DNA of 64,000 nucleotides from assembly GCF_032854445.1 (NCBI RefSeq), contig NC_088305.1, forward strand, positions 8,789,717 to 8,853,716. Direction: 5' to 3'. The stretch comes from Liolophura sinensis. Taxonomy: Eukaryota > Mollusca > Polyplacophora > Chitonida > Chitonidae. The notes under the pieces were generated by a model that saw only the letters and a program-made list of their open reading frames with translations, was not told where the DNA came from and did not search any database. Positions 14,201 to 20,200 of this stretch are shown here, one piece after another; positions within the stretch are counted from its first letter, which is position 1; each line of letters starts with the position of its first letter. The translations under genes were made by a program, and so were the position numbers.

Positions 14201-17200
14201 TGCTTGCTTTAATACTAAGTATGATTTTGTCTTTTTGTAGGTAACAGATGAATGGCAGGGATATCCACTGGAACAGTTCTGTGTGCCCAAGCATTACGAG
14301 GAGGACCTGGAGAGTATCCTCATCCCGTGTGGACTCATTCTGGACAGGTAAGTGATGAGGGACACGACTGTGTGTTAGAACAGTTCTGTGTGCCCAAGCA
14401 TTACGAGGAGGACCTGGAGAGTATCCTCATCCCTTGTGGGCTCATTCTGGACAGGTAAGTGATGAGGGGACAGGACTGTGTGTTAGAACAGTTGTGTGTG
14501 CCCAAACATTACGAGGAGGACCTGGAGAGTATCCTCATCCCGTGTGGGCTCATTCTGGACAGGTAAGTGATGAGGGACAGGACTGTGTGTTATAACAGTT
14601 GTGTGCGCCCAAACATTACGAGGAGGACCTGGAGAGTATCCTCATCCCATGTGGACTCATTCTGGACAGGTAAGTGATGAGGGACAGGACTGTGTGTTAG
14701 AACAGTTGTGTGTGCCCAAACATTACGAGGAGGACCTGGAGAGTATCCTCATCCCGTTTGGACTCATTCTGGACAGGTAAGTGATGAGGGACACGAATGT
14801 GTGTTAGAACAGTTCTGTGTGCCCAAGCATTACATAGAGGGATGCGGAGAGTGTCCTCATCCTGTGTGGACTCCTTCTGGACAGGTAAGTGATGAGGGAC
14901 ACGAATGTGTGTTAGAACAGTTCTGTGTGCCCAAGCATTACATAGAGGGATGCGGAGAGTGTCCTCATCCTGTGTGGACTCATTCTGGACAGGTAAGTGA
15001 TGAGGGACAGGACTGTGTGTTAGAACAGTTGTGTGTGCCCAAACATTACGAGGAGGACCTGGAGAGTATCCTCATCCCGTGTGGACTCATTCTGGACAGG
15101 TAAGTGATGAGGGACACGACTGTGTGTTAGAACAGTTGTGTGTGCCCAAACATTACGAGGAGGACCTGGAGAGTATCCTCATCCCATGTGGACTCATTCT
15201 GGACAGGTAAGTGATGAGGGACAGGACTGTGTGTTAGAACAGTTGTGTGTGCCCAAACATTACGAGGAGGACCTGGAGAGTATCCTCATCCCATGTGGAC
15301 TCATTCTGGACAGGTAAGTGATGAGGGACAGGACTGTGTGTTAGAACAGTTCTGTGTGCCCAAACATTACGAAGAGGACCTGGAGAGTATCCTCATCCCG
15401 TGTGGACTCATTCTGGACAGGTAAGTGGTGAGGGACAGGACTGTGTGTTATAACAGTTCTATGTACCCAAGCATTACGAGGAGGACCTGGAGAGTATCCT
15501 CATCCTGTGTGAACTCATTCTGGACAGGTAAGTGATGAGGGACAGGACTGAGTGTTAGAACAGTTGTGTGTGCCCAAACATTACGAAGAGGACCTGGAGA
15601 GTATCCTCATCCCGTGTGAACTCATTCTGGACAGGTAAGTGGTGAGGGACAGGACTGTGTGTTAGAACAGTTGTGTGTGCCCAAACATTACGAGGAGGAC
15701 CTGGAGAGTATCCTCATCCCGTGTGGGCTCATTCTGGACAGGTAAGTGATGAGGGACACAACTGTGTGTTAGAACAGTTGTGTGTGCCCAAGCATTACAA
15801 GGAGGACCTCATCCCGTGTGGACTCATTCTGGACAGGTAAGTGATGAGGGACAGGACTGTGTGTTAGAACAGTTGTGTGTGCCCAAACATTACGAAGAGG
15901 GACCTGGAGAGTATCCTCATCCCTTGTGGATTCATTCTGGACAGGTAAGTGATGAGGGACAGGACTGTGTGGTAGAACAGTTCTGTGTGCCCAAGCATTA
16001 CGAGGAGGACCTGGAGAGTATCCTCATCCCATGTGGGCTCACTCTGGACATGTAAGTGGTGAGGGACAGGACTGTGTGTTATAACAGTTGTGTGTGCCCA
16101 AACATTACGAGGAGGACCTGGAGAGTATCCTCATCCCGTGTGGACTCATTCTGGACAGGTAAGTGATGAGGGACAGGACTGTGTGTTAGAACAGTTGTGT
16201 GTGCCAAAACATTACGAGGAGGACCTGGAGAGTATCCTCATCCTGTGTGGACTCATTCTGGACAGGTAAGTGATGAGGGACAGGACTGTGTGGTAGAACA
16301 GTTGTGTGTGCCCAAACATTACGAGGAGGACCTGGAGAGTATCCTCATCCCGTGTGGGCTCATTCTGGACAGGTAAGTGATGAGGGACAGAACTATGTGT
16401 TAGAACAGTTGTGTGTGCCCAAACATTACGAGGAGGACCTGGAGAGTATCCTCATCCCGTGTGGATTCATTCTGGACAGGTAAGTGATGAGGGACACGAC
16501 TGTGTGTTAGAACAGTTGTGTGTGCCCAAGAATTACGAAGAGGGACCTGGAGAGTGTCCTCATCCCGTGTGGACTCATTCTGGACAGGTAAGTGATGAGG
16601 GACAGGACTGTGTGTTAGAACAGTTGTGTGTGCCCAAACATTACGAAGAGGACCTGGAGAGTATCCTCATCCTGTGTGGACTCATTCTGGACAGGTAAGT
16701 GATGAGGGACAGGACTGTGTGGTAGAACAGTTGTGTGTGCCCAAACATTACGAAGAGGACCTGGAGAGTGTCCTCATCCCGTGTGGGCTCATTCTGGACA
16801 GGTAAGTGATGAGGGACAGAACTATGTGTTAGAATAGTTGTGTGTGCCCAAACATTACGAAGAGGACCTGGAGAGTATCCTCATCCCGTGTGGATTCATT
16901 CTGGACAGGTAAGTGATGAGGGACATGACTGTGTGTTAGAACAGTTGTGTGTGCCCAAGAATTACGAAGAGGGACCTGGAGAGTGTCCATCCCGTGTGGA
17001 CTCATTCTGGACAGGTAAGTGATGAGGGACAGGACTGTGTGTTAGAACTGTTCTGTGTGCCCAAGCATTACGAGGAGGACCTGGAGAGTATCCTCATCCC
17101 ATGTGGACTCATTCTGGACAGGTAAGTGATGAGGGACACAACTGTGTGTTAGTACAGTTGTGTGCGCCCAAACATTACGAAGAGGGACCTGGAGAGTGTC

Positions 17201-20200
17201 CTCATCCTGTGTGAACTCATTCTGGACAGGTATGTGATGAGGGACAGGACTGAGTGTTAGAACAGTTGTGTGTGCTTAAACATTACAAAGATTATTTGTG
17301 GTTTTCTTTTTGTATCTATTGCTACCTTCAAAGCAAATTTTAAAATGCCTTTCTGAGATGAGCTGAACATAATAGAATTAAGCAAGGTGACAACTTTGGT
17401 CATATGCGGAATGTTGTATACAGTTTTATAGTTTTGTTGAGGGATCAGAAAGAATGATCCTAGCTGAAGTACATGTACAGCAACGGAATGCCATCTGCTT
17501 CAAACACCGAGGACCCAATGAAAATATAATGGTTTATAAAATACCTGTTATAGAAAATGTGGTCCAATGAAATTAGTTTGGTAGTACATAAACGTCTTGC
17601 ACTTGAAGAGATACTGGATCCCAGAGGAATACATGTGTGTACGGTATCAAAAGGGAGGTAACTCAGTGTGCTAAAAGCATTTGAGGGCTGCACTGGATAC
17701 AGAGTGCAGTATTACCTGGCAAAAACACAGAGTAACTTTTTCCAGGCCAGGTGAATTTACGATCATTAAAGTGCTTGGATATGATGAGCTATATGTCAGC
17801 ATTTCATCCAGTACGGATTTTCAACACAACATAGACTCATACCTTATACATATGATACTTATACTGACACCATATATTTCTGTATCCTGCCGTTAAGTAA
17901 CCATGCAACAAATTTATCCGGCAAAGACCCGTACTGCATATCACTCCATCATTTACAAAACACTTCACAAGAACCTAATGTTGTTTGTCTTTCATCACAG
18001 AATAGAGCGTCTGGCGCGTGATGTGGTACAGGACATGCACCAGGAAGGCCTGGTGGCACTCTGTGTCCTCAAGGGAGGCTACAAGTTCTTCGCCGATCTT
18101 ATGGACCGCATAAAGCAACTGAATCGCAACACAAACGAGTCTGTACCCTTATCAGTGGACTTTATACGTACAAGGAGCTACGTGGTGAGTGCTTAGAAAA
18201 GCTTAACGGAAAGATAACAGTACAAAGCTGTAAATGGTGTATTGTATTATAGAGCTGTATGCCTGAATAGAATATATTAGTGTATAAAATAAGGATGATG
18301 TTTACAAGTCTATGTAAGGTAAATCTATTATATCCAAAAATTTTTTCAAAATAAATAGAGCAGATATTCCGTGTTCAAGGGGATGTTAGCGTAATGTGGT
18401 CGCTGTGAGTTCAAGTCCAGTTTCTGCTGGCTTCCTTTTTGCGGATGGTCTCGGGTTTTCTGCGTGCTCTACCCGGTTTCCTCCCACCATATTGCCGGCT
18501 GCTGTTGTATAAGTGAAATATTATTAGTTACTTGTTTACTCATTGAAAGGATACAGAAATATATGGTGTCACTAATCATCATATTAGTCGAAGTGTCCCA
18601 GTATGTAGGTTACTGATACCATATATTTCTGTATCCCGTCACTGAGTAGCCATGTAACAAATTTATCCAGCAAAGATCCATCAATTCAGTGCAGAAGGCC
18701 GATGTATAAGTGAATGGCTTCAGTGATGTGACCATTGTGTTCACAACGCAACAAAGGGAGATAACCTACTTAGGAGACAGATTTGACATCTGCAGGATTC
18801 GAGAAGACGTGTACCCCACGAGACCGTTGTTGCCTGATGAGGACATAAGCTTGAATATGGCATGAAACACTGATCAAATAAATAAAATATTCTACATATT
18901 GGAAAGATGTAGGAGCAGACAGTCTGTTAGTAGATTATCATCGATGAGCTTCAGCTCTAACTCCAATGGATTAAGTACATGGGAAGGTCTTCAGCACCCT
19001 GCGGATTGTCGTGGGTTTCCTGTGGGCTCTGCCCGGTTTCCTCCCACCATAATGCTGGCGGCCATCGTATAAATGAAATATTCTTGAGTGCAGCATAAGA
19101 CACCAATTAAATAAATAAATAAATAAAATGGGTTAACATAATTGAAGTACATGTACATGTGATCTTTGAATTAGTTCTAAAATACGAAATAATGAAAATA
19201 GGTAAAAACATCCATATTATATGTATCTGTTTGCAGAATGAGAAATCAACGGGCAATGTTAACATCATCGGGGCAGATCACCTGGTAACCCTTAAGGGCA
19301 AGGTTGGTGCAAACTTTCTCTCCTATGACTCCGTCTGGTACATGTACATCATTAGATTTAGTAGTGTCTACCAATCATGTCAGTCAAATATTTTTTTTCC
19401 CACCTCTGACTTGAACAGGTGGCTCACTGCGACCTGTCTGACCTTTGACCAATGATATTGCATGTACTAATTCCGCTGTCGGTGGCTATAAAGTGTATTC
19501 ATCAATGACATGATTTCCGAATATATCCAACCATTGATGGAAAATATGCATTAATATAGAGTTTGTTAAGAATGTTTTGTTTTTTCTTCATGTATTTGTG
19601 CCATGTCTTTCTTCATTTTCCTTAAAGGAGAAGGTGAAAAATCAGATGAAAGAGGGTAAAAACTTATTTGCAAATCTGATCTTTAATATTTTGGGGGATT
19701 TTTTTTTGGAAGAGAAAGGGTATTTGAAAACATTTTGTATGGTGGATATTTGGAACCAACTTTTGATATATATCGTTGTTGCATAATAATGGTCTAAATA
19801 AGGATGTGATGCTTGTCTAATCAATTTATTTGAATGTAAATTTGGTGGTTATATCGAAACATATGCATTTAACCTAAATTATGATAATATTTATGAACAT
19901 ATTAAAAATATAAATATGATCCAAATTGAGGTTTAATACATTTGTAAGCTGAAAAGAACAAATTCTAGTGCAAAAATATTTATGAAATCAGTGTTACATC
20001 CTCATTTATGACATTATTAAACAAAGACTATAAATACCAAAAGGTGGTCTCAAATACCCTCCATACAAAAATTATTTTTAAGAGTCTTTTTCTCCTTACG
20101 GGAAAATCGGAAAAAATATTGAAGACCACATTTAGGAATGACTTTTCGCACTCTTTCATCCGAACTTTGTCATTTTTGTTTTCTCCACATTTAAAATTTT

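Follow-up and report, generated by a model that had tools for sequence, protein, structure and literature searches.

The HPRT gene and the array in its second intron

The DNA analysed here (the window) is a 64,000 bp stretch of the polyplacophoran mollusc Liolophura sinensis, taken from contig NC_088305.1 (positions 8,789,717 to 8,853,716) of RefSeq assembly GCF_032854445.1; all positions below are those of the window. Its forward strand carries an HPRT gene in which exon 2 is followed directly by a long head-to-tail array of units closely related to that exon, each of which begins with a 5' splice site. The array and its 28 donors had been noticed earlier from the letters of the sequence (the original prediction), and the present analysis asks what the repeated unit is, how it may have arisen and whether its copies are in use.

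The exons of the HPRT gene, predicted by homology and splice signals, join into one open frame of 239 codons, and on this basis the gene should be functional. The earlier identification of the host as HPRT is borne out by the homology matches and by PDB, whose HPRT chains are matched by the 239-codon product with a best E value of 2.2e-94; the best chain agrees with the human HPRT1 sequence used here across exon 2, and Pfam assigns a phosphoribosyltransferase domain to the predicted protein. Exon 2 itself, the authentic copy and unit 1 of the array, occupies 14241..14347 (107 bp, found by tblastn with residues 10-45 of human HPRT1) and lies between the acceptor gtctttttgtag and the donor CAG/GTAAGT (a slash marks the exon boundary or unit junction). 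Exon 3 is at 18001..18184; exons 2 and 3, at 107 and 184 bp, have the same lengths as the human ones, and the human exon 2/exon 3 junction lies at the matching place. The predicted coding part of exon 1 (5208..5291) ends at the phase-0 donor ATC/GTAAGT and joins the open frame. Among the ATG-to-donor frames of 4201-6200, five in number, this one was selected by eye on its DAVI end, which we compared with the GVV that human HPRT1 presumably reads ahead of exon 2; a stricter scan of candidates, requiring G ahead of the donor, returned none. The predicted exon 1 sits in the sole 1-kb stretches of positions 1-14500 with a CpG ratio above 0.7. Downstream lie exon 4 (19237..19302), a single 101 bp exon at 20520..20620 that equals human exons 5 and 6 joined (18 and 83 bp in human HPRT1, the intron between them being absent here), the equivalents of human exons 7 (21282..21328) and 8 (22273..22349), and the coding part of the last exon with its TAG stop (24295..24348), all on the + strand.

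Counting exon 2 as the first, 28 units lie head-to-tail at 14241-17229, and a broken 29th runs from 17230 to about 17286 on the + strand, where homology to the unit stops within the copy. The part of the array inside intron 2 thus comprises units 2-28, typically 107 bp long, and the broken unit 29 (14348..17286, + strand), and the units adjoin one another with no introns between them. The 28 junctions, of the form TGGACA(G or T)/GTA, are found at 14348-17230, and their 27 spacings are 107 bp in 19 cases, 108 bp in six, and 106 and 95 bp in one case each. Every junction has GT (28/28) and all except the last, which reads GTATGT, have GTAAGT (27/28); the full donor CAGGTAAGT is present at 26 of the 28. 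The two central observations of the original prediction, a 28-fold array with near 107-bp spacing and a GT donor in every copy with GTAAGT in 27, are therefore correct. On both strands of the window CAGGTAAGT occurs 26 times, each time inside the array, against 0.61 expected from shuffles, and Tandem Repeats Finder (TRF) picked up the array. When the 107-bp unit was used to search the 609-Mb assembly of the species itself, all 28 scored matches fell within the array; such counts are lower bounds (at least 28), and the absence of further matches carries no meaning for rarity. The tandem array itself is real.

The 27 intronic units are all distinct in sequence. An exon-like AAG state is present in nine of them (units 2, 7, 12, 17, 22 and 27, and also 6, 15 and 26) and an exon-like TTC state recurs in seven. 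The recurrence of AAG at every fifth unit from 2 to 27 hints at an old five-unit block. A clear higher-order repeat was looked for and rejected: offset 6, at 0.045 before correction for the number of offsets, is the sole one of offsets 1-10 to reach such a value in shuffles.

Nature of the repeated unit

The repeated unit is probably the whole of exon 2, exon joined to exon, a reading that we prefer with some reserve. The original prediction had divided the unit into 77 bases of exon and 30 bases of intron; this division is probably incorrect because the array has a period equal to exon 2 in length (107 bp) and because the 30 bp align in register with the start of exon 2. These 30 bp, which stand immediately 3' of donor 1 (14348..14377, + strand), are read here as the 5' end of copy 2. 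Aligned without gaps to bases 1-30 of exon 2, the 30-bp consensus of units 2-28 is identical at 17/30 positions, the best of the 107 possible registers. With the donor hexamer excluded, 13/24 positions match in the same register (shuffle fraction 0.0035), and none of 124 donor-like stretches in the window equals this. Human exon 2 gives the same figures (17/30, and 13/24 without the hexamer; shuffle fraction 0.0036), while the front 30 bp of the chiton exon 2 match it at 15/30. At the 13 non-hexamer positions that exon 2 and the human exon have in common, the 30 bp match ten (shuffle fraction 0.0004), a value reached by 0/570 donor-like stretches, and the 13/24 matches are concentrated on these common positions (P = 0.021). 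The likeness to exon 2 extends to the protein level (shuffle fraction 0.0013). These comparisons make it probable that the 30 bp once were the start of an exon 2.

Several points weigh against a whole-exon unit. Between copy 1 and the unit consensus there are differences at 13/30 positions in front and at only 2/77 behind (Fisher 5e-7), and a whole-exon unit therefore requires that sequence exchange was confined to the last 77 bp; this sparing of the front is an assumption, and a 77+30 unit needs none. The protein-level likeness of the 30 bp to human exon 2 is not significant (fraction 0.06), and the human exon 2 letters used in the comparisons are provisional. The original downstream donor was not found: the array closes with an incomplete copy, and no homology to the unit above that of shuffles remains in the two flanks compared (13500-14240 and 17287-18000). 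An exchange limited to the last 77 bp is plausible because the real exon codes for protein at its front, where the copies are now donor and intron, and because over the last 77 bp copy 1 is no more divergent than the copies are among themselves (mean difference 5.2%, against 6.9% among copies); in the first 30 bp, at 44.8%, it lies outside their diversity.

The strongest competitor, which we consider possible and clearly the less likely of the two, is that a segment made up of the terminal 77 bp of exon 2 and the initial 30 bp of intron 2 was duplicated and expanded. The likeness of the intron start to the exon start would then be chance, or a short homology used in the exchange, and what is said below of splicing and neutrality would be unchanged. 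This explanation accounts directly for the abrupt shift from 13/30 to 2/77 differences at its proposed breakpoint, and the boundary-spanning repeats of amphioxus globin genes consist of exon and intron pieces (PMC3087553). It fails, however, to predict that the period equals the exon length, or that the 30 bp resemble both exon 2 and human exon 2 in register.

Donor choice and sequence drift in the copies

Donor 1 (CAGGTAAGT, 14345..14353, + strand) is the sole donor of the 28 that yields the 239-codon frame, the exon then being 107 bases long; splicing from any of the other 27 would bring a stop at codon 65. For donor 1 it also holds, as had been remarked in the original prediction, that reading past the donor meets TAA at once. 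From the sequence it is most likely that donor 1 is used and that the remainder of the array is passive intron; use of a later donor would be rare and would end in decay.

Units 2-28 differ from one another by 6.4% on average. The distinct substitutions in the 77-bp part comprise 8 silent, 17 replacement and 2 stop changes, where 7.4, 18.6 and 1.0 are expected under neutrality, and those in the 30-bp part comprise 0, 7 and 1, where 1.6, 5.9 and 0.5 are expected; linked substitutions in units 6 and 7 are included in these counts. Selection on the copies as coding sequence was accordingly rejected, as the substitution classes match the neutral expectation in both parts, and the copies drift neutrally. 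It had been noted that about 22 of the 28 copies are open in the HPRT frame, with silent differences among them. The count stands in so far as 22/28 units are free of stops as stand-alone exons. Six of these, at 108 or 106 bp, are out of phase, which leaves 16/28 units (15 of the 27 intronic copies) both open and in phase; open frames and silent differences are not supported as evidence of use, since the substitution counts fit an absence of selection. The retention of the donor is shared with other stretches of the unit: 10 of its 107 nine-base windows, the donor among them, vary as little, and special conservation of the donor was rejected on this ground.

It is improbable that the extra donors or copies are used, whether as a brake that works by nonsense-mediated decay or as alternative forms of exon 2. 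The donors are strong, 15/27 intronic copies are open and in phase, the stop at codon 65 with 27/27 later donors would fit a decay switch, and the unit ends are near the poorer real acceptors in pyrimidine content: 27 of them have 8 pyrimidines in the 15 bases ahead of the junction and one has 9, and the seven HPRT acceptors have 9, 9, 9, 11, 11, 11 and 12, which makes the unit ends only slightly poorer acceptors than real ones. Set against this are substitutions without a sign of selection for coding (8 silent, 17 replacement and 2 stop changes), the six of 28 units with stops and six more out of phase, and a conservation of the donor that several other parts of the unit equal. Still less credit is due to a ratchet, in which each CAG/GTAAGT would act first as acceptor and then as donor, so that the array was removed stepwise and the mRNA left untouched. 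A CAG beside GTAAGT is a known form of recursive splice site, and the two abut at 26/28 junctions; the pyrimidine content of the unit ends, however, is at or under the lowest of the seven HPRT acceptors. Nothing in the sequence positively supports a role for the copies, be it that of alternative exons, of a decay switch or of a ratchet, and they are presumably without function.

Comparison with mirages and other known systems

Repeats of this general kind are known in amphioxus as 'mirages', a name reportedly coined by Canestro in 2002. Mirages are there tandem repeats that span exon-intron boundaries (PMC3087553, PMC3902484). They were found in the amphioxus globin genes BflGb6 and BflGb9, with units of 150-160 and 157 bp; BflGb6 has 6 and 3 units in two haplotypes, the BflGb9 mirage is at the 3' boundary of exon 2, regular splicing is suggested by reverse transcription polymerase chain reaction (RT-PCR), the repeats undergo concerted evolution from which the edges are excluded, and Adh3 is cited as a further example (PMC3087553). 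The PGBD5 mirage has, depending on the assembly, 2 or 7 units of 60 bp and 3 or 6 of 108 bp, and TnC is also cited as a mirage gene (PMC3902484). In these reports mirages are held to leave splicing undisturbed (PMC3087553, PMC3902484).

Like these, the HPRT array consists of minisatellite-like repeats over an exon boundary beside the authentic exon, and, as in BflGb9, the boundary is the 3' one of exon 2. AG/GT signals recur in many copies of amphioxus mirages, as GT does in 28/28 and CAGGTAAGT in 26/28 junctions here. BflGb6 is homogenised inside and not at its edges, and in the HPRT array it is the front 30 bp of unit 1 and the end of unit 29 that diverge. The HPRT array differs in its approximately 28 units, in a unit that is probably a whole exon, and in its host. 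Boundary-spanning repeats, repeated splice signals and inner homogenisation with the edges excluded are thus all found, and by these features of its sequence the HPRT array is a mirage. A minisatellite made of a constitutive exon and its donor, at this copy number, had been supposed to be undescribed; as a kind it is described, in the amphioxus mirages (PMC3087553, PMC3902484). The principle is not new, because mirages are already known; new here are the number of copies, HPRT as the host and, probably, a whole exon as the unit. No description of the HPRT array itself was found among the matches listed in the open-access literature.

The AGGT tandem-duplication model of intron gain (PMC4974935, citing Hellsten 2011), exemplified in the same source by an intron over four duplicates of a 24-bp exon piece in the fission yeast gene SPOG_01682 (PMC4974935, citing Zhu and Niu 2013), resembles the HPRT case in that copied exon sequence holding AGGT supplies splice signals and the protein is unchanged. 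In contrast to that model no new intron position has appeared in HPRT (the junction is where the human one lies); rather, an old intron was lengthened and, if the unit is the whole exon, given a different donor. Human duplicated genes carry variable internal tandem repeats at exon-intron boundaries (PMC2812944), which are likewise minisatellite expansions at an exon boundary. They differ in that they have 30-bp units in four copies on average, lie in segmental duplications and are often also retained in transcripts. Mutually exclusive exon duplicates, in turn, keep introns between their copies. Tandem duplication of mutually exclusive exons (PMC9013439) also copies one exon head-to-tail, but those copies are in use, whereas the HPRT units abut and show no coding constraint. 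A mutually exclusive exon array was rejected here on the grounds that the units abut and that substitutions are as they would be without selection.

Proposed origin and maintenance

We think it fairly probable that the feature is an exon-boundary minisatellite, or mirage, with the whole of HPRT exon 2 as its unit. The sequence is GTAG/GTAACAGATG on the acceptor side of exon 2 and ACAG/GTAAGTGATG on its donor side, with AGGTAA at both ends; exchange between the two ends would therefore duplicate the exon exactly, each junction becoming a donor. Recombination or slippage between the two AG/GTAA ends may thus have copied exon 2 precisely, exon to exon. Each new junction, CAG/GTAAGT, would then be a donor supplied by the first bases of the copy that follows, those of copy 2 serving copy 1. 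Such an insertion would be silent provided that the first donor (14348) was used, as the gene would need donor 1 alone, and the units past it would have been turned into intron and homogenised by unequal exchange. Exchange would still go on between the intronic copies and the final 77 bp of the authentic exon, and the first 30 bp of the exon (protein code) and of the copies (intron) would have drifted apart. Since the last copy is broken and the flanks are unlike the unit, the old donor of intron 2 would, on the whole-exon reading, have been lost.

If the unit is indeed the whole exon, the exon's own first bases were turned into the donor of the preceding copy. The array also suggests that intronic exon copies can keep exchanging sequence with a coding exon, and it offers a natural test of the choice of one 5' splice site among 28 near-identical ones in a housekeeping gene.

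A different route seems very unlikely, by which a single-exon circular RNA of exon 2 was reverse-transcribed repeatedly, giving the exact exon-to-exon units, and the concatemer recombined beside exon 2 in its own gene; on this route the array would have survived because an exon 2 that directly follows another happens to begin with a good donor. Least likely of all is an assembly artefact: tandem arrays are easily misassembled, but simple duplication is disfavoured because 27/27 intronic units differ and no exact self-repeat exceeds 149 bp, and the window lies at 8.8 Mb within one contig of a 609 Mb assembly of 632 contigs.

Other repeats in the window

Intron 1 of the HPRT gene contains a second array, a 16-bp CTCTGTTTGTCTGTCC repeat in about 69 copies at 9231-10317 (region 9185-10398). 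Long open frames of 396, 392 and 380 amino acids are present there in the three + strand frames and are probably non-coding. On the - strand, 36346-39264 holds two open reading frames of a chondroitin N-acetylgalactosaminyltransferase (CHGN) gene, where a 21-bp array (36581-37101) stops about 44 bp ahead of an acceptor at 36537 (read by eye); this array seems to be intronic and not boundary-spanning. Further minisatellites include those at 34097-34629 (135 bp), 37403-38029 (86 bp), 50071-50388 (82 bp), 50347-50763 (37 bp) and 55371-56116 (32 bp), and there are many others.

A comparison of exon 2 with phage records gave no match and a 36-base stretch of the unit had no exact match in viral contigs, animal genes not being expected in either collection; a Rfam scan of the window gave nothing at the gathering score. 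We note lastly that CGGTTTCCTCCCACCAT occurs 15 times in the window with three or fewer mismatches (0.14 expected), at 18474-18490, 19034-19050, 2673-2689, 46203-46219 and 11 more sites, and so behaves as a short interspersed repeat, which we take to be similar to a short interspersed nuclear element (SINE-like).

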